Source of the DNA: Acidobacteriaceae bacterium KBS 146
GTDB taxonomy: Bacteria; Acidobacteriota; Terriglobia; Terriglobales; Acidobacteriaceae
Length of the DNA: 64,000 nt
NCBI GenBank assembly: GCA_000688615.1
Contig: JHVA01000001.1
Location: forward strand, 1,736,001-1,800,000
Reading direction: 5' to 3'
The translations under genes and the position numbers were made by a program. The number at the start of each line of letters is the position of its first letter. Within the stretch, counting starts at the first letter, position 1. A model generated the notes under the pieces. That model was not told the origin of the DNA and did not search any database. It was given only the letters and a program-made list of their open reading frames with translations. Shown piece after piece: positions 7,327 through 22,024 of the stretch.

Positions 7327-8559
7327 TCAGAAGCTGCCCGCAAAGATCGACTTCAGCTTCGACCGCAGGCCCTGCTCTTCGCTCGCCTTCCTGACTAGGG
7401 TCCGGTGCGTGTACAGCAGCATCCCAATTACAGTGGCGAACTCCGGTTTCACCAGCTCCTCCGGCATCTTCGACAGCGGTACGGGATACCCGATCCGCGC
7501 CGGAACCCGCAACAGGCTCTCCGCATTGTCCAGCAGTCCTGCCATCATGGAGCCTCCGCCCGTGAACACGCATCCCGCTCCCAGAGCCTCAAGCACGCCG
7601 CCCACCCGCAGGTTGTCACGCATCATCGTGAATAGCTCTCGCGCTCGCGGCTCCAGAATCTCTGCAAGAAACCGCTGCCGCACCAGCCGCGCCGGTTGTC
7701 CCCCCGAGATCGCCAGGTCGCCGCCGACCTCAATCTCGTTCGACTGCGGAACGGCAGTGACGACACAGTGTCCATACGTCTGCTTCAGGTACTCAGCCTC
7801 TTCCACGGTCACATGGAGCCCCACGGCCAGGTCATTGGTAAAGTGATCGCCGCCGATCGGCAGGACCGCCGTATGCGCTACCGAACCCTCGAAAAACACG
7901 GACAACTCCGTCGTGCTCGATCCGATATCAGCGATGCAGACTCCAAGCTCCCGTTCATCGGCAGAGAGCACTGCCTCCGCTGAGGCAATCCCCTCATAGA
8001 CCGTATCCACCACCTCCAGCCCGGCACGGTTCGCACACGTAATCACGCTCTGTGCGACGCCTCCGGAGCAGGTTGAGAGATGCAGATTGACCTCGAGCTT
8101 GTTACCCACCATTCCAATCGGATCGTGGATTCCTGCCTGATCGTCAAGAATGAACTCCTGAGGCAGCAGATGGAGCACCTCACGGTCAGCAGGCAGAGCC
8201 ACGCTGCGCGCCCGATCCACTGCGGCCCTTACCTCTTCGCGCGTAATCTCGCGCATCCGGCTTCCCAGGCTGATGCCGCCGCGGGAGTTCATCCCACGCA
8301 CGTGCGTTCCGCCAATCCCAACGACGGCTGTCTCAATCGCCGCCTTCGAAGAGCGTTCTGCCGTCAGCGCAGCACGATTGATGGCCTCTGCAGCCGGTCC
8401 AAGCTCGGCAATCAATCCCTTGCGCATGCCCTTCGATGGTTCAATCCCGTGTCCGCGATAGCGCAGCACGCCATCATGCAGCTCCGCGACAAGCACACAG
8501 CTCTTCGTGCTTCCGGCGTCCAGCACGGTAATCAGGTTTTCTGGCTTCTGGGTCTTCAT
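7327..8559 (-). CDS. ftsA: cell division protein FtsA
   Basis: Actin-like membrane tether for FtsZ. The 410-residue protein begins MKTQKPENLITVLDAGSTK, the first phosphate loop of the actin fold. The SHS2 (1C) region is near 'GIGGTHVRGMNSRGG', and the second phosphate motif is 'CIADIGSSTTELSVF'. The start was chosen because its ATG overlaps the ftsQ stop in an ATGA junction (8556-8559); a longer in-frame start exists inside ftsQ but adds 28 non-homologous residues. The C-terminus (KASEEQGLRSKLKSIFAGSF) is amphipathic and basic, matching the membrane-targeting helix. Confidence 0.96.
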   Translation of the reverse strand: MKTQKPENLITVLDAGSTKSCVLVAELHDGVLRYRGHGIEPSKGMRKGLIAELGPAAEAINRAALTAERSSKAAIETAVVGIGGTHVRGMNSRGGISLGSRMREITREEVRAAVDRARSVALPADREVLHLLPQEFILDDQAGIHDPIGMVGNKLEVNLHLSTCSGGVAQSVITCANRAGLEVVDTVYEGIASAEAVLSADERELGVCIADIGSSTTELSVFFEGSVAHTAVLPIGGDHFTNDLAVGLHVTVEEAEYLKQTYGHCVVTAVPQSNEIEVGGDLAISGGQPARLVRQRFLAEILEPRARELFTMMRDNLRVGGVLEALGAGCVFTGGGSMMAGLLDNAESLLRVPARIGYPVPLSKMPEELVKPEFATVIGMLLYTHRTLVRKASEEQGLRSKLKSIFAGSF

Positions 8560-9896
8560 GGATGAACCACCTGCGGCGGATGATACTTGACCTCTACTCT
8601 CGAGCCCTGTGCTGCGTCCACTGTTTCTCTCGGATGTACCCAAAACGAATCTCCGCTCGCCTTCAAAGTCGACGCCGAAGGAGCGGAAGATCTTGAATCC
8701 GCTGCGCCCCGTTTCGCCGGCGCACTCTTTTTCACAGCCGGCTTCTTCCCTTTGGCCGACGGCTTCGCGGTCGCCTTCTTCGCGGGCGCTGCGTGATGTG
8801 CCGGCACCGCACTTCGTGCCGTGGCAGTTGCAGGGGTGGAGGTTGCGGCGGGGCTCGCTTGCTTGCCATCTTCCACGGGAGCCTGTTGTTCCCCAACTAC
8901 CGGAGCCACCGTGCCATGTTGCATCTCAAGAACCACCTGCCGGTCATATCGCATATCCACCGAAGCAAGATGAGGGTATAGATTTCTCCACTCCGGAAGA
9001 TGCTCTTCAAATTTTCTGTAGCGGTCCAGAAAATTATCTTCTCCGAAGTGAACCATCACCTCGCCGCCCTTATCCTGAACCGTCGCTCGAACGTCCTCAG
9101 GGCTCGAAAGATCAACCTCGCTCAGCTTCTCTGAGATCTTCTCTCCACTCCCATCCAGGTCGTTCGTGAACCTTTCATAGAGCTTCATCCGTGCGGCGCG
9201 CAGCGACAACGGGTCCTTTGCATCGAGACCTGTCACTACGGGAAAAGAATAGTGCGACTTCGTCTGCATATCCGTCAGCATGTCCAGCAGAATTCCACTT
9301 GCATCCACCAGGCCGATGTGGTTCCCCTGGCGAACGAAGGCCACCGGCGTTCGCTCCGTAACCTCAACCCGCAGCCGGTTCGGAAGCAGCCGCATCACCG
9401 TCGCGTGTTCCACCCACGGAAGCTGCTCCAACTCCGCCTTCCGCTGATCCAGCGGTACGCGAAAGATGTTCCGCTCAATGTCTTCCCCAAACAGGCTGAC
9501 CAACTCTGCTCTCGCCACGTGCGAATTTCCTTGCGTCTCGATCGCGGTCGAGGAGCCGATCATAAACCGCTCATCGTGCAGAATCGCGTTGCGCGCCATC
9601 ATGGCCGCACCGCCGCAAAGCCCCACCAGCACCAGCGCGGCGACTGCGGCTGCAATCTTGCCTCCACGGGATTGAGGCAATCCTCCACGCAGCGTCAGGC
9701 GAACACCGTTCTGCCGCCTCCGCGCCGGCAACGCGTCGTCTTCGAGCACATCCTCGTAGTCTATAAATTCGCGAGCCATCATCCTCTTCGGCGCAGACGT
9801 ACTCTCCGGAAGCCCGGTTGACTCCAAGGCGTGCTCCTGCTCCGGCGCCTCTAGCACCGCCGCACCTCGCCTCGAAGATCCGTCTCTACTTCGCAA
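8556..9896 (-). CDS. ftsQ: cell division protein FtsQ with a long basic C-terminal tail
   Basis: Bitopic divisome protein linking early and late assembly. A cytoplasmic N-terminus (about 1-75) is followed by one membrane segment (KIAAAVAALVLVGLCGG region, about 80-102). A POTRA domain ('IETQGNSHVARAELVSLFGED', about 118-190) and the FtsQ beta domain follow. Beyond about residue 335 there is a 110-residue low-complexity tail of Ala, Pro, Lys and Ser that is unusual for the family. The full-length start is a TTG at 9896; ATGs at 9782 and 9779 just before REFIDYEDV are good alternatives. The end overlaps ftsA by four bases, implying translational coupling. Confidence 0.9.
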   Translation of the reverse strand: MRSRDGSSRRGAAVLEAPEQEHALESTGLPESTSAPKRMMAREFIDYEDVLEDDALPARRRQNGVRLTLRGGLPQSRGGKIAAAVAALVLVGLCGGAAMMARNAILHDERFMIGSSTAIETQGNSHVARAELVSLFGEDIERNIFRVPLDQRKAELEQLPWVEHATVMRLLPNRLRVEVTERTPVAFVRQGNHIGLVDASGILLDMLTDMQTKSHYSFPVVTGLDAKDPLSLRAARMKLYERFTNDLDGSGEKISEKLSEVDLSSPEDVRATVQDKGGEVMVHFGEDNFLDRYRKFEEHLPEWRNLYPHLASVDMRYDRQVVLEMQHGTVAPVVGEQQAPVEDGKQASPAATSTPATATARSAVPAHHAAPAKKATAKPSAKGKKPAVKKSAPAKRGAADSRSSAPSASTLKASGDSFWVHPRETVDAAQGSRVEVKYHPPQVVHP

Positions 9897-10214: not shown

Positions 10215-11627
10215 TCACGCCACCGGCTGAACCGCCCCCAGCTTTTCCAGCATCAGCCCGGCCGCCTGCGAGACACTGCCCGCCCCCATCGTCAGAATGA
10301 CGTCCCCTTCACGCGCCTCACGCACCAGCGCGTCGACACCCTCAGCCACTGATCGGGCATACCTTACCTCTGTTCGCCCAATCGCCCTCACCAGGGAGTC
10401 TGCCGTCACCCCGGCAATTGGTTCCTCGCTCGCAGCATAGATATCCAGCACCTCAACCCGGTCGGCATCGGCAAACGCCTCGGCAAACTCCCGCATCAGG
10501 TCTCTCGTCCGGGTATAGCGGTGAGGCTGGAACAACACAAGGACCCTGCCGTATTCGCACTCCTTTGCCGCCTTCAGTGTAGCCACGATCTCCGTCGGGT
10601 GATGGCCGTAGTCATCGACAACCGTTACGCCGCGCACCGTTCCCTTCACCTGAAAACGCCGATCCACGCCCCGGAACCCGTCCAGTCCCGCCGCAATCTG
10701 TTCAGGAGCAATGCCCAGCTGAACTCCAATCGCGACCGCGGCTGCGGCATTCATCACATTGTGTCTTCCTGGAACATGCAGAAGGAACGGACCCAGCGTC
10801 GTTCCACGGTAGCTGACCTCGAACCGCGAAAACCCCACCCCATTCCGCGCTAACATCCTGACCTGAAAGTCAGCGTCCGCACTCTCACCATAGGTGTAAA
10901 GACGCCGTCTCACCTGGGGAAGCAACGCTCGCAGAGGAGCGTTATCCACGCACGCCACTGAAGCCCCATAAAACGGAACTCGATCCATAAACTCCAAAAA
11001 GGCTGCTTCCACATCCGCCATATCGCGATAGCAGTCCATATGCTCGCGGTCGAGATTCGTGATGACCGCCAACACCGGCGACAGCTTCAAAAACGACCGG
11101 TCGCTCTCATCGGCCTCCGCCACCAGATATTGCGAATTCCCCAGCCGGGCGTTCGAACCCAGCGCATTCACGCGTCCGCCAACCACGACTGTAGGATCCA
11201 GTCCGCCGGCTGCCAGGACTGAGGCCACCATGCTCGTCGTGGTCGTCTTGCCATGCATTCCGGCCACTGCAATGCCGTACTTCAGCCGCATCAACTCAGC
11301 CAGCATCTCCGCACGCTGAATTACCGGAATCTTCCGGGCCCTCGCCTCCAGCACCTCGGGATTCTCCCGCCCGACCGCGGAGCTCGTCACGACCACATCG
11401 GCTCCCGCTGCATTGGCCGCCACATGGCCTTCAAAAACCCTGGCCCCCATGCCCACCAGCCGCTCCGTAACCGGAGATCGCCGCAGATCACTCCCTGAAA
11501 CCGCATACCCCATCGTCAGCAGAATCTCCGCAATTCCACTCATCCCAATTCCGCCAATTCCTATGAAGTGAATCCGAAGCGTGGAAGCGAAAAACAGCGG
11601 AGCAGATGGCGCATTGGTAACCGGCAT
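10215..11627 (-). CDS. murC: UDP-N-acetylmuramate--L-alanine ligase MurC
   Basis: Adds L-Ala to UDP-MurNAc, the first peptide-stem step, in the cytoplasm. The N-terminal Rossmann domain has '[17 protein letters not shown]' (20-36). The ATP loop GMHGKTTT is at 123-130. The central '[13 protein letters not shown]' and the C-terminal '[11 protein letters not shown]' motif (about 336) are typical of MurC. At 470 residues the size is normal. The ATG at 11627 is the only good start. It is the first gene of the left half of the dcw cluster and is separated from murG, its usual upstream neighbour, by 8.2 kb of unrelated genes. Confidence 0.97.
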
Positions 11628-11703: not shown

Positions 11704-12057
11704 GTGAAGTCCGAAATGCGTCGCGTGGATATCCAGGAACTCGTGAAGAATGCAGGTGCCCCATACTTCAACCAGGACCTGACCACGCTCAATGACCACG
11801 TGGTCCGATTGAGCGTCATGACCGAGCCCTTTTATTGGCACCGTCATCCCAACTCCGACGAAACCTTTCTTGTTCTCGAAGGCGAACTTCTCATCGAGTT
11901 CGAAGATCAGAAGATTACGTTAACGCCGGGTCAGATGCTGACCGTTAGCGCAGGCGTAGCTCACAGGACACAGCCCATCGGTTCAAAATCCGTCAACCTC
12001 ACTGTTGAGCGCGCCGACTCCAGAACCGAACGGATCTCTTATCATGAATTGGGATGA
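11704..12057 (+). CDS. small cupin-domain protein
   Basis: A 117-residue single-domain cupin. Motif 1 is visible as 'FYWHRHPNSDETFLVLEGEL' (about 41-60, with two His and one Glu as possible metal ligands). Motif 2 is 'LTPGQMLTVSAGVAHR' (about 74-89, with the last His ligand). The GTG at 11704 is supported by AGGAG seven bases upstream; an ATG four codons later is the alternative. Such stand-alone cupins act as sugar isomerases, dioxygenases or metal-binding regulators, and the substrate cannot be read from sequence. It lies between murC (divergent) and the nitronate monooxygenase-like gene (convergent). Confidence 0.8.
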   Translation: MKSEMRRVDIQELVKNAGAPYFNQDLTTLNDHVVRLSVMTEPFYWHRHPNSDETFLVLEGELLIEFEDQKITLTPGQMLTVSAGVAHRTQPIGSKSVNLTVERADSRTERISYHELG

Positions 12058-13668: not shown

Positions 13669-14742
13669 ATGGACCTCTCCCGTAGAATCCGCAACGTATT
13701 TGGGGCTGCCGTGCTAGGAACCGCAGTCTTGACTGGCGCAGCATTCTTCTCTCCTACACAGGCACAAGCTAGAGTATTTGTCTCCGTTGCAATCGCTCCC
13801 CCCGCAATTCCCGTCTACGCCCAGCCTGCGATGCCCGGCGATGGCTACATCTGGACCCCCGGTTACTGGGCCTGGACTGGCGAAGGCTATGAATGGGTTG
13901 AGGGCGCATGGGTCCTTCCTCCTTATGTTGGTGCGCTCTGGACTCCCGGTTACTGGGGCTACGGATCGGGCGGCTATCTCTGGAATGCCGGTTATTGGGG
14001 CCCGAGTGTCGGCTACTACGGCGGAATCAACTATGGCTTCGGCTACTTCGGCGTAGGATTCTACGGCGGCTACTGGGGTGGAGGACACTTCTGGTACAAC
14101 CGCTGCTACAACAACTTCCGGCCCGGCTGGCGTGGCGGCTATATATACAACCGTCCCTACGCTGGCCATGCGGACGGCCGCCCCGGAGGATCGAGTTGGA
14201 ATAACCGCGGCAATAACTTCGCCGGCAATCGCGGCTCGTACTTCAACAATCGCGGTAACAACTTCGGTCAGAGCAGCCGCAATGGAGACTTCAATCGCGG
14301 CATGACCAACGTCTCGGCCTCCCGCAACTACAACAGCGGAGGCTTCAACAATGGACGTCAGGGCAACTTTGATCGCGGCAACTTCCAGGGAACGCGGGAA
14401 GCAACAACGACGCAACGCAGCTTCGCGGGCTCCAACCAGAACTTCAACAACCACAGTTTCTCGAACCCCGGCCAGAGCATGGCCTATCGCGGTAACCAGA
14501 GCTACGGCAACCGTGGCGGCTTCGCAAGCTCACAATCACGGCCCAGCTTCGGCGGTAACTCTGGAGCCTTCCGCGGCAATAGCGGAAGCTTTGGCGGATC
14601 GCGCGGCGGAGGCTTCAACGGTGGTGGCGGTGGCTTCAACGGCGGTGGCGGCGGATTCCATGGCGGCGGCGCTGGCGGAGGAGGCTTCCACGGTGGTGGC
14701 GGCGGCGGTGGTGGATTCCACGGCGGCGGCGGACATCGCTAG
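13669..14742 (+). CDS. YXWGXW-repeat secreted protein with Gly/Asn/Arg-rich tail
   Basis: A 357-residue exported protein. A signal peptide (about 1-35, ending AQA) is followed by three W-x-x-GYW units at about 62-67, 91-96 and 105-110, the hallmark of the YXWGXW repeat family. Then comes a Tyr/Gly/Trp-rich stretch to about 155. The C-terminal 200 residues are low complexity: first Asn/Arg/Gly/Ser-rich with many 'NRGNNFG' units, and at the very end (about 305-357) GGGGF-N/H repeats ending in GGGGHR. This composition suggests a surface or extracellular matrix protein, or a disordered, possibly RNA-binding-like tail. The function is unknown. A strong terminator follows. Confidence 0.82.
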   Translation: MDLSRRIRNVFGAAVLGTAVLTGAAFFSPTQAQARVFVSVAIAPPAIPVYAQPAMPGDGYIWTPGYWAWTGEGYEWVEGAWVLPPYVGALWTPGYWGYGSGGYLWNAGYWGPSVGYYGGINYGFGYFGVGFYGGYWGGGHFWYNRCYNNFRPGWRGGYIYNRPYAGHADGRPGGSSWNNRGNNFAGNRGSYFNNRGNNFGQSSRNGDFNRGMTNVSASRNYNSGGFNNGRQGNFDRGNFQGTREATTTQRSFAGSNQNFNNHSFSNPGQSMAYRGNQSYGNRGGFASSQSRPSFGGNSGAFRGNSGSFGGSRGGGFNGGGGGFNGGGGGFHGGGAGGGGFHGGGGGGGGFHGGGGHR

Positions 14743-14892: not shown

Positions 14893-16383
14893 ATGTCGAA
14901 ATCCGAGGGGCTGGCCCCTCACACTGTTGTTTCTGAGTCGACAAAAGCAACGCGACGCGACTTTCTCCAGGGAGCTATCGCAGTCGCGGGCACGCTCGCC
15001 ACCACGGGAGTACCGTCACCAACCGCCGCCGCACAATCCCCCCAAAAGCGTCCCAATCTCGTCTATTTCCTTGGTGAGGGACAGCGCGCGGATGCTCTCT
15101 CCCTCGCGGGCCACCCCATCCTTAAAACTCCCAATCACGACCGCATCGGCACCGAGGGTGTGCGCTTCAACAACGCCTTCTGCACCAATGCTCTCTGCGC
15201 CCCCGCACGCGCCGCCGCGCTCACCGGCATGTACTCCCGCTCTACCGGCGCTCTCTCCAACGAGCATCTCGGCAAGCCGCTGCCCTCCGACATCCCTCTC
15301 TTCACCGACCTCCTCAAGCAGGCAGGCCACGAGATCGCAATCCTCGGCAAGGTCCACATGCACAACGGCGTCGAAGACCGGAACTGGGACTACTACTTCG
15401 GACACAACGACCCCGGCAACAACTACGTCGATCCCTTCTTCAAAGAAGGCCGCAACGGCATCGTAGGCCCGCAGAAGCAGTACCACAACGTCTACCCCGA
15501 TGACCTCACCACCGACAAAGCTCTCGAGTGGATCGATCAGGATCGCGGTGACAAGCCCTTCTGCATTCTCATCTGGTTCGTCGCCCCGCACGAGCCCTTC
15601 TTCCGCCCTCGCCGCCACCTCGACCTCTACAACGGTGTCCCCATCCCTAAGCCCGCCACCTTCGACGACGACCTCAAGGGCTACCCAGGCAAGCCCAAGA
15701 GCTTCATCGACGCTGAAAACAAGATCGGAACCACCTACTCCCACGTCGCCTGCGGCTCGCTCGAAGGCATGACCAAGGACTACTACGCCGGTCTCGTCGC
15801 CGTCGACGAAAACATCGGACGTGTCCTCGACCACTTGGAGAAGAAGGGCATCCTCGACGACACCGCCATCCTCCACACCTCAGACCACGGCTACTTCCTC
15901 GGCGAGTGGCGCTGCTTCGACAAGCGCCTCATGCACGAGCCCTCCCTCCGCGTGCCCATGATGCTGCGCTATCCCAAACGGGTCAAAGCCGGCACCGTTC
16001 GGGACGAGATGGTTCTCGACATCGACATCGCCCCCACACTGCTCGATATCGCCGGCGTCTCTACCCCATCGCACATGCAGGGCAAAAGCATCCTTCCTCT
16101 AGCCGCAAGGCCGGAACCCACCTTCCGCAAGGAGTGGTACTACGAGTACTACGAATGGCCCAACCCTGAGCACGTCGCGCCCCACCGCGGCATCCGCACC
16201 GAACAGTACAAGCTCATCCAGTACGTCATGGACCCCACTGAAGGCGAGCTCTACGACCTGAAGTCCGACCCCGGCGAACGCACCAACCTCTACAACAAAC
16301 CCGAGCACGCCAAGCTCCAGGCTCACCTCGAACAGCGCCTCGAAACCCTGCGAACCAGCTACCCGGAGCGCCAGAAGATCTAG
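14893..16383 (+). CDS. Tat-exported type I sulfatase family protein
   Basis: A 496-residue alkaline-phosphatase-superfamily sulfatase. The start at 14893 has GAAGGAG nine bases upstream; a longer frame from 14797 overlaps the terminator and is unlikely. A twin-arginine signal (TRRDFLQGAIAVAG, Arg 21-22) precedes the mature protein. The formylglycine signature CxPxR is CAPAR at 102-106, followed by the usual 'AALTGMYS'. Other family features are 'HTSDHGYFLGEW' and 'PSLRVPMMLRYP'. The usual paired Asp near the N-terminus reads GEGQRAD here (61-67), so the metal site may be atypical. No sulfatase-modifying enzyme lies nearby. Substrate unknown; choline-sulfatase- or N-sulfoglucosamine-sulfohydrolase-like activity is possible. 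Confidence 0.88.
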   Translation: MSKSEGLAPHTVVSESTKATRRDFLQGAIAVAGTLATTGVPSPTAAAQSPQKRPNLVYFLGEGQRADALSLAGHPILKTPNHDRIGTEGVRFNNAFCTNALCAPARAAALTGMYSRSTGALSNEHLGKPLPSDIPLFTDLLKQAGHEIAILGKVHMHNGVEDRNWDYYFGHNDPGNNYVDPFFKEGRNGIVGPQKQYHNVYPDDLTTDKALEWIDQDRGDKPFCILIWFVAPHEPFFRPRRHLDLYNGVPIPKPATFDDDLKGYPGKPKSFIDAENKIGTTYSHVACGSLEGMTKDYYAGLVAVDENIGRVLDHLEKKGILDDTAILHTSDHGYFLGEWRCFDKRLMHEPSLRVPMMLRYPKRVKAGTVRDEMVLDIDIAPTLLDIAGVSTPSHMQGKSILPLAARPEPTFRKEWYYEYYEWPNPEHVAPHRGIRTEQYKLIQYVMDPTEGELYDLKSDPGERTNLYNKPEHAKLQAHLEQRLETLRTSYPERQKI

Positions 16384-16436
16384 TCACACGTGAGATGACG
16401 AGAAGGGCGTTTATGAGGACAAATTCTTTTGCTGTC

Positions 16437-18143
16437 CTAGCTTGATGGTATTGCTTTCTTGAGCAGTGAAAAAATCTCCCGATGCACGTCCTCGAATTGA
16501 GACGCTTGTAGTAGGGACATTTGCTCAACCGGGGTATCGATCCTCTTTCCACCAAATTCAATGCCCATGTCATTCTCAAGCCCGAGAATTAGTTGGGTAC
16601 CTTCAGGTTGATGATCCGCTATGAATTGGAGTATCTGTGGCAGATGCTTACCATCTTGTCCTTGCTGATTTGGCGAGTCAATAATGATTGGACAGACAGT
16701 TGCCGGGGAATAGCGAAATATCAGATTGAGGATCGCGAACTGATAAGCCAATAGTGCTCGCGGCAAAGTGCTACCGGTCTCGAAGATGGAAGGGATCAGG
16801 GTCTGAAATACGGACTGCGTATAGGCTTGCACATCGACAGCAATAAAATTCCGCCTAAGAGTTTCAGCGTACACAGCTAAACGATCTCTCCGAACAGCAG
16901 CCGCACGCCGATCCAAACCGTCAAGCTCTGATTTGATTCTTGTGGCCTCGGCCTCCGCGTTTACGCGCGTTTCCTGAAGGGAGGTGAGTTGTCCGGTGAG
17001 CAGATTGTCCGCTGCCCGACGGCCTTCGCTTTCGATCAACACCTGAAAGGTAACCTCGCCCTGCGCCTCTTCTAAAATTTCTTGAATTCTCGCCGCTTGC
17101 GAGCGAGCGATGGAATATTCGTCGTATACCTGAGAGATTTCCCTGTCTAGGCGTGTCAAATCGGCTCGAAGGTGAATAATGAATTCGGCTACTTTGTCTT
17201 CATCGCTCGCGATGGCGAACCTAGCTGCAAAGTTATTTTCGTAATGTGTCCCGCAGGTCGGGCATTCGACGCCGCTCCTATCGAGTCTCTGCAAAAAGTC
17301 AAAGTCTCTAGATATTTCCCCCAAAGCGCGTTCCGCAATCTCGAGCCTATTCGCTTGTAAAGCGCGCTCAGAGTTTAGCTTGCTAAGGCGCGTGCGAAAC
17401 TTTTCTTCTGTGGCCGCGAGCGCTTGACTTTCACCAATCATTCTTTTGATTCGATCGCTAAATACACCTGGATCGAGGCTGAAGACGGTCGCGCTTGAAT
17501 CTCTCTCTAGCCGATTTATTACGTTTGCCACGCCGCGCTCTGCACCCACAGCTTCTTGCGCTTCGATACGCCTAGTCAAATATTCGGCGCTCGTTCTGTA
17601 GTATGCGTTGTTTTTGACACCAGCATGGTAGTCAACCATCGCGTCCTTCCAAGCGTAGTACTGGTAGAGGCGATCAAAGGCTGTCCATGAGTTCTGCCAA
17701 CTAGAATCCTGGTCCATGTAGAAGGGGAGGAAGAAGAATGCGGGCGGAGGTGTCTGCGGTTCTTCTTCGCGGGAGGCGAGGATGAGCCCAAAATCGAGCA
17801 AGGCAGCCAAATAGGGCGCAAGTTCTGAGCTTACGCGGGAGAAGGATTTTAGAAAGGTGCCATCACCCGTGAAGATTGCAAAAAAGCCGCCGTCTCGCAG
17901 AATTTGGTATTCCTTATCATCCAGGCGAAAACGAACGAGAGATTTTATCTCTGCGGCCTTCCATCGTGGGTGCTGTTTTGCAGGTTCAGCTCCGAATGTT
18001 TGATAGATCGTCTTTATCAGAGAGGACTTTCCCGTCGAGTTTCCGCCAGCTATGATCGTGCGAATTGGATCGAATGTCTCGCGACGCGCTCTCCTCTCCT
18101 TCTCTGACAAGATCAGGATCTCGGAGATTATCAAGTGTTTCAC
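16437..18143 (-). CDS. SMC/Rad50-like ATPase of a two-gene defence-type module (LmuB-like)
   Basis: A 568-residue ATPase with a split ABC head. The Walker A loop GGNSTGKS is at 33-40, preceded by 'FDPIRTIIA'. Residues about 185-430 form coiled-coil-prone sequence interrupted by a zinc-hook-like CPTCG at 294-298. The C-terminal head has a signature-like 'STLPRALLAYQFAILNL' (458-474) and a Walker B-like PIIIDSP (485-491). The start is a GTG at 18143, because an in-frame TGA lies just upstream. The gene begins 44 bases after the DUF4297 nuclease gene on the same strand. This architecture matches LmuB of Lamassu or ATPases of ABC-three-component-type systems, inferred as nucleic-acid-sensing immunity. 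Exact family assignment needs profile searches. Confidence 0.75.
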   Translation of the reverse strand: MKHLIISEILILSEKERRARRETFDPIRTIIAGGNSTGKSSLIKTIYQTFGAEPAKQHPRWKAAEIKSLVRFRLDDKEYQILRDGGFFAIFTGDGTFLKSFSRVSSELAPYLAALLDFGLILASREEEPQTPPPAFFFLPFYMDQDSSWQNSWTAFDRLYQYYAWKDAMVDYHAGVKNNAYYRTSAEYLTRRIEAQEAVGAERGVANVINRLERDSSATVFSLDPGVFSDRIKRMIGESQALAATEEKFRTRLSKLNSERALQANRLEIAERALGEISRDFDFLQRLDRSGVECPTCGTHYENNFAARFAIASDEDKVAEFIIHLRADLTRLDREISQVYDEYSIARSQAARIQEILEEAQGEVTFQVLIESEGRRAADNLLTGQLTSLQETRVNAEAEATRIKSELDGLDRRAAAVRRDRLAVYAETLRRNFIAVDVQAYTQSVFQTLIPSIFETGSTLPRALLAYQFAILNLIFRYSPATVCPIIIDSPNQQGQDGKHLPQILQFIADHQPEGTQLILGLENDMGIEFGGKRIDTPVEQMSLLQASQFEDVHREIFSLLKKAIPSS

Positions 18144-18187
18144 GGCGCTCTCTCTTTCTCAGTTCACGGATTAGCAGCATCAGATTG

Positions 18188-19288
18188 CTAACGCTCATAG
18201 GCCTCGATGATTATTGCGGTTTTCAAGTAAATATCAGAGAAGCCCCATTCTCTTCGCATCACCTTACGAACGTCCGCGAAAACCTTCTCGATGAGGTCAA
18301 GTAGTCGCGTCTCCACAATGTGTGATGTGACTGACTCCCGGAGGGCTTCTCGCAAGCGCAAGCGAGGAAGGTCCCGGGCGGCAAGGCGATCTAAACGGAC
18401 CGCGTCCCATTCCTTTCTGATAGCTGAAAGAAGGCTGAACGGGCATCCTTCGGCGTTCAGACGCTGCGACACCTCATCGAAATCCACCGACGATCCTGAT
18501 ACGCCTGCCTGCCTCAATACATCCTCAAAAGAGGACCGGCTTAGCGACTTATGGATAAGTAGATCCTCGAACGCCTCGATTGTTTCCTTACGGTTATTTC
18601 TGACAACGACTTCGCTAAGAAGAGAGCGGTAAAGCGGAAATATTCGGAATTCCCTATCCGGAAACAGCTGTTGCAAGAAATCGGTGAGTTTCCCGCGGGT
18701 ATACGTGTCATGCTTTCGCAGAGGGAGATCCGCTTTCACGAATTCCACTAATCCGCTAAGGTCCGGATCTTTTTCCAGGTTAGCTTCAGTCTTGAGTGCC
18801 TCTTTTATAGTCTTCTGATCGTCCACGTGAAGCTCATCGAAAGTGGTGATCTCTTGGTCATAGTGTTTTTTTACATCACATCCAAGTTTCACAGTAACCG
18901 ATACGTTGGAGACTATTGCTAGAAGCTGGACCTCAGGAAATTTTGCCTTCAAATCGTAAAGTTTACCCATTATCGAGGGCAACAACTTTGGCTTCTCACC
19001 CCCGCCAACATCCTGCTTTATCAAGTTTTTGATTGTGAAGTTAGCACCGTCTTTGGTTTTTATCTGATAGCCCGAAATGGCCGTCGGGGAAGATTCAGAA
19101 TCCAAAATCATCACATCTTCATGATGGTCAAAGATGACCACGTAGTCTTTGCCAGAGACATGTAGTTCAAGCAAATGACACAACGCCCAATGCTGTTGGT
19201 AAGAGAAGCGGTCGGATGCTGTTGCGCCAGACAAATCACGCGGCGCCATGCTCACAAGGCGGGACTTAAGATCCACGATGTCACTCAT
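18188..19288 (-). CDS. DUF4297/Cap4-type dsDNA nuclease-domain protein (LmuA-like)
   Basis: A 366-residue protein whose first 130 residues match the DUF4297 / Cap4 endonuclease pattern: 'DRFSYQQHWALCHLLELH' (26-43), 'YVVIFDHHEDVMILD' (49-63) and YQIKTK (74-79), i.e. the acidic residues and QxK of a PD-(D/E)XK-like active site. The rest (about 150-366) is helical with no motif I recognise and may bind the ATPase or sense the trigger. It is the first gene of a pair with the SMC-like ATPase. The pairing is that of two-gene Lamassu-type systems in which the ATPase licenses DNA cleavage. Base composition is less GC-rich than in the flanking dcw genes, consistent with transfer. Confidence 0.75.
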   Translation of the reverse strand: MSDIVDLKSRLVSMAPRDLSGATASDRFSYQQHWALCHLLELHVSGKDYVVIFDHHEDVMILDSESSPTAISGYQIKTKDGANFTIKNLIKQDVGGGEKPKLLPSIMGKLYDLKAKFPEVQLLAIVSNVSVTVKLGCDVKKHYDQEITTFDELHVDDQKTIKEALKTEANLEKDPDLSGLVEFVKADLPLRKHDTYTRGKLTDFLQQLFPDREFRIFPLYRSLLSEVVVRNNRKETIEAFEDLLIHKSLSRSSFEDVLRQAGVSGSSVDFDEVSQRLNAEGCPFSLLSAIRKEWDAVRLDRLAARDLPRLRLREALRESVTSHIVETRLLDLIEKVFADVRKVMRREWGFSDIYLKTAIIIEAYER

Positions 19289-19451
19289 GCTGGGAATCAG
19301 CCAATAGTAGCATCGCGCGACGTCAAGTCAGCTAAATCCTAATGCTCCTGAACCATCTATCTAAAAAGTAGGCTCTATCAGTCCTTATAAGTCGGCTAAG
19401 CGTAAGTGAGACGGCTCTCGGCGGATTGCACCGTTAACATTAGGGCTCGCC

Positions 19452-19519
19452 GTGTGCCCCATTCATGACGCGGCCTCATCGCGGCATGAGTGGGCTCATT
19501 CGCGCGAGAGCGCGAACCG
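19452..19519. repeat. GTGCCCCAT-type dispersed intergenic repeat
   Basis: Reads GTGTGCCCCATTCATGAC, then CGCGGCATGAGTGGGCTC, then a GCGCGAGAGCGCG hairpin and AACCG. The same ordered blocks (TGCCCCAT, CATG-TGGG, GAGCGAAGCTC, GAACCG) recur at 47219-47270, with a further partial unit at 47159-47218. Confidence 0.6.
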
Positions 19520-19530
19520 TCTTGCTTAAG

Positions 19531-19590
19531 GGCACGGCTTCGGCCGTGCTGTCCCGGGACTACAAGAAAAGGAGCTTCAGCCCCTGAGGT
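19531..19590. repeat. paired hairpin repeat unit
   Basis: A perfect GCACGGC-TTCG-GCCGTGC hairpin (19532-19549) is followed about 20 bases on by a second imperfect hairpin, AGGAGC-TTCA-GCCCCT. Such paired palindromes flank many acidobacterial genes and resemble REP-like elements. This is one copy. Confidence 0.5.
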
Positions 19591-19782
19591 CCAAACCCTG
19601 TCAAGCCCGGAATCCCGCAAGCAGCACAAACGAAAGCACATCGAAATGCCGATCCATTCCCCCAAACCGAGTAACCTTAAATCATGAGATCGACCGAGCT
19701 TTATAACCCCTGTATCGAGACGAGGTTCATCCATAAACCGAATCATTGGAAGACTTTGAGAGGCATGACCCAATAAAATTGG

Positions 19783-19802
19783 GACTTTGCGAGCGAAGTC
19801 CA
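19783..19802 (-). terminator. possible weak terminator downstream of murG
   Basis: GGACTT and AAGTCC arms close a short hairpin about 50 bases past the murG stop. On the minus strand it is followed by CAATTTTATTGG, itself palindromic and T-rich. If real, it would end the right-hand dcw transcript here and leave murC to another promoter. Confidence 0.35.
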
Positions 19803-19848
19803 GACCTAAGTCTCATCTTTGTAAGACTTTGCGCAAAACAGGAGGGGG

Positions 19849-20931
19849 CTATCCCGCCAGTTCGACAGCCATCCCGGCAATCTCCCGCACAGCCTGAGGA
19901 TGGGCCAGAGACCTCGCCCTCTCGCCCATCGCAACCCTCCGCTGATTGTCCGATAGCAGCTCAGTCAGAACCCCCAGCAGCCGCTCCGCCGTAAGCTCCG
20001 CTTCGATAATCAGCTCCGCCGCACCGGCAGCGACAAACGCCTCCGCGTTCTTCCGCTGGTGATCGTCGGCGGCCTGCGGAAACGGAATCAGCACCGCCGC
20101 CCGGCCCGCCGCCGCAACCTCGGCCACCGAGCTGGCTCCGCTGCGGCACAAAATCAGGTCCGCCGCCGCAAACTGCGCCGCCATCTCGTCGAGATAGGGC
20201 GTCACCGTCAGCCGTTCGAAACCGATCCCGGCCTCGCGATACGCCGCCAGCGTCGTCTCGGCATGACGCGCCCCGGTCTGGTGAACCACAGTCAGTTCAG
20301 GAAATCGCTCCAGCAACGGAGCCATGATCTTCGGCATCGTCTGATTAAGAATGCGAGCACCCTGGCTCGCGCCGAAGACCAGCAGCCGCTGCGCCGGACC
20401 TGCCGGACGAGGCTCAATCGCAAAAAACTCCGGACGAACGGGCGTGCCCGTAACCCGAGCGTTGCGAAAGTACTTCGTCGTCTCGCTCAGGTTCACCGCA
20501 GCCGCGCTGACATGCTTGCCCACCAGCCGGTTCGCCAGCCCCGGCACCGCGTTCGGCTCGAAGGCGAGCGTAGGAACCCGCAGCAGGATCGCCGCCATCA
20601 TCGCCGGCCCGGAGGCATAACCTCCAACTCCGATCACCACCTGCGGCCGAAAGCTTCGCAGCAGCTTCACGCAGTGCAACACTCCTAAAGGAAGATCGAA
20701 CAGCGTTCGCGCCCGTGTCGCGAGGCTGACATTCTTCAACTGACCGACCTTGATCAACTCCAGCGGGAATCCCGCCTCGGGAACCAGCCTGGTCTCCAGC
20801 CCGCGAGCGGTTCCGACAAAACGGACCTCGCCGCCATGTACATCGCGCAACTCCCGCGCAATCGCCAGTGCAGGCACAACATGGCCGCCCGTCCCGCCGC
20901 CCGCAATCAAAACCCGCAGCAACTTGCCCAC
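19849..20931 (-). CDS. murG: UDP-GlcNAc--lipid I N-acetylglucosaminyltransferase MurG
   Basis: Peripheral membrane glycosyltransferase that makes lipid II. The N-terminal loop is 'VLIAGGGTGGHVVPALAIA', the second glycine-rich loop is 'IGVGGYASGPAMMAA', and the C-terminal domain has 'CRSGASSVAEVAAAGRAAVLIPFP' with the UDP-sugar contacts and 'DDHQRKNAEAF'. About 360 residues is normal. The start is ambiguous: a GTG at 20931 just after the ftsW stop with GAGATT upstream, or a TTG at 20940 overlapping ftsW. It ends the right-hand part of the dcw cluster; the expected next gene, murC, is 8.2 kb away. Confidence 0.96.
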   Translation of the reverse strand: MGKLLRVLIAGGGTGGHVVPALAIARELRDVHGGEVRFVGTARGLETRLVPEAGFPLELIKVGQLKNVSLATRARTLFDLPLGVLHCVKLLRSFRPQVVIGVGGYASGPAMMAAILLRVPTLAFEPNAVPGLANRLVGKHVSAAAVNLSETTKYFRNARVTGTPVRPEFFAIEPRPAGPAQRLLVFGASQGARILNQTMPKIMAPLLERFPELTVVHQTGARHAETTLAAYREAGIGFERLTVTPYLDEMAAQFAAADLILCRSGASSVAEVAAAGRAAVLIPFPQAADDHQRKNAEAFVAAGAAELIIEAELTAERLLGVLTELLSDNQRRVAMGERARSLAHPQAVREIAGMAVELAG

Positions 20932-20932
20932 G

Positions 20933-22024
20933 TCAGTCAATCTCGCGGGTGACGTTCAACAGAACCCCCATGCTGGCCAGCATGACGAAGAGCGATGTTC
21001 CCCCGAAAGAGATAAAAGGCAGTGTGATTCCCTTCGTGGGCACCAGCGCGATCACCACGCTCATATTGAAGAAAGCCTGGATCAGCACCGTGCAAGTGAT
21101 GCCAAAGGCAAGAAAGCGAGCGAACGGATCGGTCGAAAGATATGCTGCGCGAAGCCCACGATATCCCAGCGCGACGAACAGAGCGATCACCATCACCGCG
21201 CCGATCAGCCCCAGCTCCTCGCAGATATTTGCGAAGATAAAGTCAGTGTGCGGCTCGGGAAGATAAAAGAGCTTCTGTATCCCTTCCATCAGGCCCCGAC
21301 CGCGCAGACCGCCGGTACCGACAGCGATCAGCGACTGCAGAATGTGGAAGCCCGTCCCTCGCGGGTCCGCCTCAGGATTGACAAACGCGAGCATGCGCGC
21401 CCGTCGCCACGGCACGCGAAACAGCAGATAGTAGAGGACAGGCATGGAGGCGAGCGCTCCAATGCCCAGATACTTGAGCTGCATGCCCGCGAGGTAAAGC
21501 ATAAGGCCGGTGACAGCGGCGCATACGATAGCCGTGCCGAGGTCGGGCTCCATGACAATGAGACCGATGAAGAGGATCGGAGGAAGCGCCGCGCGAAGCA
21601 CCGTCCCGCGCCAGTCATCCATCTTGTGAATGCGGGTCTGCAGGAAATAAGCGAGAAAGAGCACCAGCGTAGGCTTGGCAAGCTCCGAAGGCTGGAAGCT
21701 CACAAATCCAAAACGGAACCAGCGATGTGTATTGTGCGAGTCGCGCATCGCGAAGACGCCGATCAGCAAAACCATGGTCACGGCGACAGCAGTAAAGACA
21801 AACTTGGGATTGTTATATCGCCGGTAGTCCACCTGCATCAGCAAAGAGAGCGCGATAAGCCCAAAGACTGCCCACATTCCCTGCCGCAGCATGAAGTAAT
21901 ACGGAGTTCCAAACGTAGACTTTGCCATGACGGCCGATGCGGAAAAGACCGTGACCAGGCCGAACAGCACCAGCAGCAGCACTACTCCGAAGAGCCATTT
22001 ATCGACGCCAACTCTCTTCGCCAT
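20933..22024 (-). CDS. ftsW: SEDS-family peptidoglycan polymerase FtsW
   Basis: Polytopic inner-membrane glycosyltransferase of the septum, partner of FtsI. The 363 residues carry about ten membrane segments. SEDS markers include 'SFQPSELAKPTLVLFLAYFL' (about 122-141), 'MEPDLGTAIVCAAV' (about 167-180), the long periplasmic loop with 'GGLRGRGLMEGIQKLFYLPEPHTDFIFA' and the end 'PFISFGGTSLFVMLASMG'. It begins 17 bases after murD and abuts murG, the standard dcw order. Confidence 0.96.
   Translation of the reverse strand: MAKRVGVDKWLFGVVLLLVLFGLVTVFSASAVMAKSTFGTPYYFMLRQGMWAVFGLIALSLLMQVDYRRYNNPKFVFTAVAVTMVLLIGVFAMRDSHNTHRWFRFGFVSFQPSELAKPTLVLFLAYFLQTRIHKMDDWRGTVLRAALPPILFIGLIVMEPDLGTAIVCAAVTGLMLYLAGMQLKYLGIGALASMPVLYYLLFRVPWRRARMLAFVNPEADPRGTGFHILQSLIAVGTGGLRGRGLMEGIQKLFYLPEPHTDFIFANICEELGLIGAVMVIALFVALGYRGLRAAYLSTDPFARFLAFGITCTVLIQAFFNMSVVIALVPTKGITLPFISFGGTSLFVMLASMGVLLNVTREID

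Follow-up and report, generated by a model that had tools for sequence, protein, structure and literature searches.

A two-gene Lamassu system, probably acquired, between murG and murC of Acidobacteriaceae bacterium KBS 146

The window analysed here is a 64,000-nucleotide stretch of Acidobacteriaceae bacterium KBS 146 (contig JHVA01000001.1, positions 1,736,001 to 1,800,000). Two adjoining minus-strand open reading frames (ORFs) in this window, separated by 44 nt, form a two-gene Lamassu system, composed of lmuA and lmuB without lmuC, that was probably acquired horizontally (probability about 0.94). The pair is a further example of the described Lamassu kind of bacterial anti-phage and anti-plasmid defence and not a new type, because the matches to the LmuA and LmuB profiles cover nearly the full length of both proteins.

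Identification of lmuA and lmuB

In the PADLOC scan, LmuA matches PDLC00238 at 1.1e-81 over residues 5-365, and LmuB, an SMC/Rad50-like ATPase, matches PDLC00249 at 9.6e-181 over residues 1-564. Lower-ranked LmuA and LmuB models match the two proteins as well, and the scans reveal no difference from the PDLC00238 and PDLC00249 families. In Pfam, the lmuA product matches Cap4_nuclease at 3.1e-35, as expected from the Cap4/DUF4297 N-terminus that an earlier note had proposed from the sequence. No Pfam family exceeds the Pfam cut-offs for the lmuB product, and no NCBIfam family exceeds its cut-offs for either protein.

Searches of the PDB point in the same direction. A phmmer search with LmuB finds 9ux7_A ("Lamassu protein LmuB", 562 aa) at 2e-10. 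A profile of eight proteins finds this chain at 3.5e-43, whereas the DUF3732 chain 9hqu_A comes out at 3.2e-8. For LmuA, the sequence matches are weaker: phmmer retrieves no LmuA chain at E<=1, and a profile search retrieves Hachiman 8zue (0.00085) and 9ux7_C (0.0015). For the predicted folds of both proteins, VIA places the LmuAB-DNA complex 9ux7 in its top row, and Foldseek aligns the predicted LmuB fold to 9ux7 at 2.2e-22. The content of 9ux7 and of the other PDB entries is taken here from their titles and sequences.

The ORF coordinates and all the motifs named in the earlier note (DHHEDV, YQIKTK, GGNSTGKS, CPTCG, and IIIDSP) are borne out, with profile matches far above chance. Its reading of the genes as a Lamassu-kind pair of nuclease and SMC-like ATPase stands. 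Its proposal of a new subtype does not, given the full-coverage profile matches and the two-gene LmuAB-DNA complex in the PDB (9ux7); by the note's own yardstick, full-coverage Lamassu matches make the pair a known type.

Table 1 Features of the lmuAB pair and its surroundings (positions in the window)
Feature	Position	Strand	Remarks
lmuA	18188..19288	-	putative effector; 366 aa; ATG start; N-terminal Cap4/DUF4297 nuclease and helical C-terminal domain
lmuB	16437..18143	-	putative sensor, Rad50/SMC-like ABC ATPase; 568 aa; GTG start
Cap4 nuclease domain	18608..19231	-	LmuA residues 20-227; Pfam
DHHEDV	19112..19129	-	LmuA residues 54-59; includes aspartate D58, kept in 79/80 rows (other row, gap)
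YQIKTK	19052..19069	-	LmuA residues 74-79; Q75-x-K77; Q75 and K77 kept in 79/80 rows (other row, gap)
Helical C-terminal domain	18191..18712	-	LmuA residues about 193-366; helices in model, PADLOC profile, 9ux7_C alignment
Walker A, GGNSTGKS	18024..18047	-	LmuB residues 33-40; sequence and alignment
Hook, CPTCG	17250..17264	-	LmuB residues 294-298, between two long helices; alignment and model
Walker B onward, IIIDSPNQQ	16662..16688	-	LmuB residues 486-494; Ser490 where Glu is usual; sequence and alignment
murG	19849-20940	-	minus-strand order murG, lmuA, lmuB
Sulfatase gene	after lmuB	+	
WXXGXW gene	13669-14742	+	glycine-rich protein
Nitronate-monooxygenase-like gene	after WXXGXW gene	-	
Small gene	11704-12057	+	
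murC	10215-11627	-	
ftsQ	8556-9896	-	

The LmuA nuclease

LmuA, encoded beside lmuB, joins an N-terminal effector domain to a C-terminal domain. Residues 28-366 align to 9ux7_C, which is LmuA in the LmuAB-DNA complex structure. The C-terminal part, which had been considered unplaceable, is covered by this alignment and by the LmuA profile (5-365). By fold family, we take D58 of DHHEDV and Q75-x-K77 of YQIKTK to be catalytic. The acidic residue and the QxK whose absence was to count against the assignment are both in place, and the effector active-site residues are intact (D58, Q75, and K77 present; each kept in 79/80 rows).

Relatives of the pair

A single-protein query against a collection of one genome per species gave no match, and an LmuB alignment was used as the query instead. 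It yielded 317 confirmed loci. The best 80 were retained for comparison and, judging by their record titles, span many phyla. Their LmuB proteins have a median length of 565 aa (range 495-592; the minimum is L100, cut by a contig end), so the ATPase of 568 aa that had been called short is of ordinary size among them.

The pairing itself, which had been put forward as a point to check, is conserved. An LmuA match lies directly upstream of lmuB on the same strand in 79 of the 80 loci (partial in L048, in two frames in L093), and the remaining locus, L100, begins inside lmuB. With gene starts picked automatically, the two genes are separated by -4 to 66 nt in 78 of these 79 loci and by 158 nt in the last. 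Gaps that short leave no space for a middle gene.

The nearest relative, L045 of Acidobacteriaceae bacterium KBS 83, has an LmuB with 58% identity and different neighbour genes. Just downstream of its lmuB, an ORF (L045:5744-6319) resembles a serine recombinase by reading, a possible means of movement; it has no PADLOC match at E<=0.001.

Relatives also occur on plasmids, in 32 of the 72,556 records searched, and 20 of these 32 are from Klebsiella. In eight of the ten plasmid loci opened, a nuclease gene is annotated directly upstream; of the other two, H30 is unannotated and H1 starts at the first bases of its record. In a Haematobacter plasmid (L038:2950-4683), lmuB is annotated as two coding sequences and lies beside type IV secretion genes. 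The Lamassu of an Aliarcobacter plasmid (L041:458-7267) is preceded by a restriction subunit S gene and followed by a hypothetical gene and then an RNA-directed DNA polymerase gene. Remote matches occur in 13 phage records, 12 from Klebsiella.

LmuB lacks the Walker B glutamate

In the LmuB model, long helices (residues 225-286 and 305-361) flank the hook. Of the 81 aligned LmuB rows, 80 keep K39 and S40 of Walker A (the other has a gap), and all keep C294, P295, and C297 of the hook. Members of the wider family can do without the hook, as the Vibrio and Klebsiella proteins in alignment A1 are without CPxCG. At Walker B, D489 and Q493 are present in 81/81 rows and Q494 in 78/81.

The residue after D489, which from the motif we take to be the position of the catalytic glutamate in Rad50/SMC proteins, is serine in 58 rows, threonine in 13, alanine in nine, and asparagine in one; it is never glutamate. 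These counts cover the 80 nearest of the 317 relatives and the own row, and more distant relatives may differ. In 79 rows obtained with another search pattern, blind to Walker B, the residues are S 56, T 13, A 9, and N 1. Therefore, the absence of glutamate was not created by the search pattern. Nor is it particular to this pair, because the profile alignment shows D-S at Walker B of 9ux7_A too.

The review PMC10586767 reports that Walker B of LmuB generally has Gln in place of Glu, and suggests little hydrolysis; LmuB studied here has a serine instead. We tentatively consider a two-gene Lamassu clade that has lost the Walker B glutamate altogether but keeps Walker A and the invariant Q493, in which, if the position of S490 is that of the hydrolysis residue, LmuB might be a one-shot, ATP-locked DNA sensor, although we hold this to be somewhat less probable than its opposite. 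If it were true, ATP binding would arm LmuB, nuclease activation would be effectively irreversible, and the substitution would differ from the reviewed Glu-to-Gln change. The substitution across the nearest two-gene relatives offers a small, testable point on the use of ATP by Lamassu.

Comparison with known systems and proposed mechanism

The two-gene LmuAB in the LmuAB-DNA complex 9ux7/9ux8 has, like the pair studied here, a Cap4-type LmuA and an LmuB of similar length (562 aa in 9ux7). Its LmuA is shorter (315 versus 366 aa), identity over the fold alignments is 14% for LmuA and 18% for LmuB, and 9ux7_A lacks the proline and two glutamines that follow Walker B here. The three-gene LmuACB/DdmABC systems (9hqu, 9hqx, 9uxh, 9nyg) have similar LmuB and Cap4 LmuA folds. 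However, they contain LmuC, and their LmuB is longer (660 aa in Salmonella LmuACB, 9hqu; 571-653 residues resolved in the chains listed).

LmuB shares the Rad50 head fold and the CxxC hook with Rad50-Mre11/SbcCD, but its partner is a Cap4 nuclease rather than Mre11, and its coiled coil is much shorter than that of Rad50. The Cap4 receptor of the cyclic-oligonucleotide-based anti-phage signalling system (CBASS) has a SAVED domain, in place of which LmuA has an LmuA-type C-terminal part. Pfam yields no SAVED domain for LmuA at E<=1, and a Pfam scan of ten neighbouring proteins found no cyclase.

In PMC10586767 and PMC12904381, LmuB of this family is proposed to recognise DNA ends or secondary structure and to set the LmuA effector free, the suggested outcome being abortive infection. 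For the present pair, we infer from the family that it senses DNA, that LmuA is docked and then released, that DNA is cut and the cell dies, and that the genes were acquired horizontally. LmuB, a short Rad50-like ABC ATPase, would dimerise by way of its heads and of a coiled coil tipped with the zinc hook, and would bind DNA ends or other unusual DNA that arises as phages or plasmids replicate. LmuA would be inactive in the resting state of the complex, docked on LmuB via its helical C-terminal domain. DNA sensing would then free or oligomerise LmuA, and its Cap4-type nuclease domain would cut DNA and stop the invader, probably killing or arresting the cell.

Alternative assignments

The earlier note had also entertained an ABC-three-component (ABC-3C) or DUF3732-type system. 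PMC10586767 places ABC-3C within the Lamassu superfamily, and the LmuB profile does reach the DUF3732 LmuB of the three-gene Lamassu 9hqu. Against this, the two-gene 9ux7_A is much closer to that profile than 9hqu is, and no DUF3732 or ABC-3C family is found in Pfam or NCBIfam at E<=1 (matches weaker than about 0.1 are mostly removed by HMMER's filters). The ATPase is thus not of the DUF3732 type by these scans, and no middle component gene is present; none fits into 44 nt or into the short gaps of the relatives. As a hidden third gene we considered a 70-aa ORF that overlaps both genes (17986-18198) and a 125-aa ORF upstream (19396-19773), and rejected both; neither has a PADLOC match at E<=0.001. 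With gene content and profile scores both against it, the ABC-3C/DUF3732 assignment is very improbable and largely refuted. A housekeeping DNA-repair module of the Rad50/SbcC kind, rather than a defence system, is no more probable: lmuB is patchy, being present in only one of 61 close genomes (the own one), and the low G+C of the pair, the relatives on plasmids, and a Cap4 nuclease as partner all speak against such a module.

A new Lamassu subtype specific to the lineage or to the cell-wall (dcw) locus could be argued from the place of the pair between murG and murC. In addition, ten other proteins (seven window ORFs, two from the same-genus genome G012, and one from L045), five of which adjoin or overlap the region of the pair, have no PADLOC match at E<=0.001. 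However, existing PADLOC profiles match at full length, and 317 related loci, the best 80 of them from many phyla, are found in the genome collection. Moreover, the protein search gives no lmuB match in any of the eight colinear genomes of the genus whose murG and murC share a contig, and the nearest relative has other neighbours. A new subtype is rejected on the full-length profile matches and the fold matches, and we regard it as the least credible of the three alternatives.

Genomic setting and acquisition

The own genome and nine of 22 same-genus genomes carry murG and murC on one contig; in 12 the two genes are on separate contigs, and no murG was matched in G018. Measured between matched stretches, the two genes are 8.2 kb apart in the own genome and 1.5-3.5 kb apart in eight of the nine (G002, G004, G009, G010, G011, G013, G014, and G021). 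The ninth, G012, has a different gene order: murC is about 34 kb off on the other side of murG. In another family of the same order, nine of 14 genomes have both genes on one contig, and in these nine the distance is 45-247 bp. The spacers of G002, G010, G013, G014, and G021 were read, and tblastn finds no lmuA or lmuB in them.

G+C is 0.47-0.52 over lmuAB and 0.55-0.65 around it (800-base windows). Positions 16300-19900 contain only short imperfect repeats and no terminal repeat marking an insert, and no tRNA or tmRNA is located within the window. The likeliest explanation is that the pair is an acquired insert in a variable murG-murC spacer rather than something conserved within a cell-wall operon. 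The cell-wall location, which had been taken as a sign of novelty, is a weak one for a low-G+C pair in a spacer that varies within the genus: a defence pair is able to sit there, and being found in an unusual place does not turn it into a new type.

Across the phylum, PDLC00249 matches 43 of 396 genomes at E<=0.001, and the profile also matches six of 14 control genomes. Near full-length matches are limited to the own genome (2-561) and G211 (1-563); the others are partial, the largest covering about 230 positions (3.2e-7, in a 717-aa frame of the same-genus genome G011). Searching the own genome with PF13175 carries no weight, as this family matches in all 14 control genomes. The own genome has no second Cap4 gene at E<=0.001. 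The pair adds a well-supported two-gene Lamassu to a genus without another intact copy among the close genomes searched.

Among the 61 close genomes, lmuA is present in the own one and in G018, of the same genus. The G018 copy is a broken remnant (L002/L003, G018:C538:23414-24171) in a genome without an lmuB match, which suggests past presence followed by loss. The WXXGXW gene is present in all five same-genus spacers read (L159, L161-L164). In G012, murC, the WXXGXW gene, and the sulfatase gene remain together, and because of this the break in G012 may lie near the position held by lmuAB in the own genome. The WXXGXW gene is a recurring neighbour: L160 also has it close to murG, and L165 has it together with murC.
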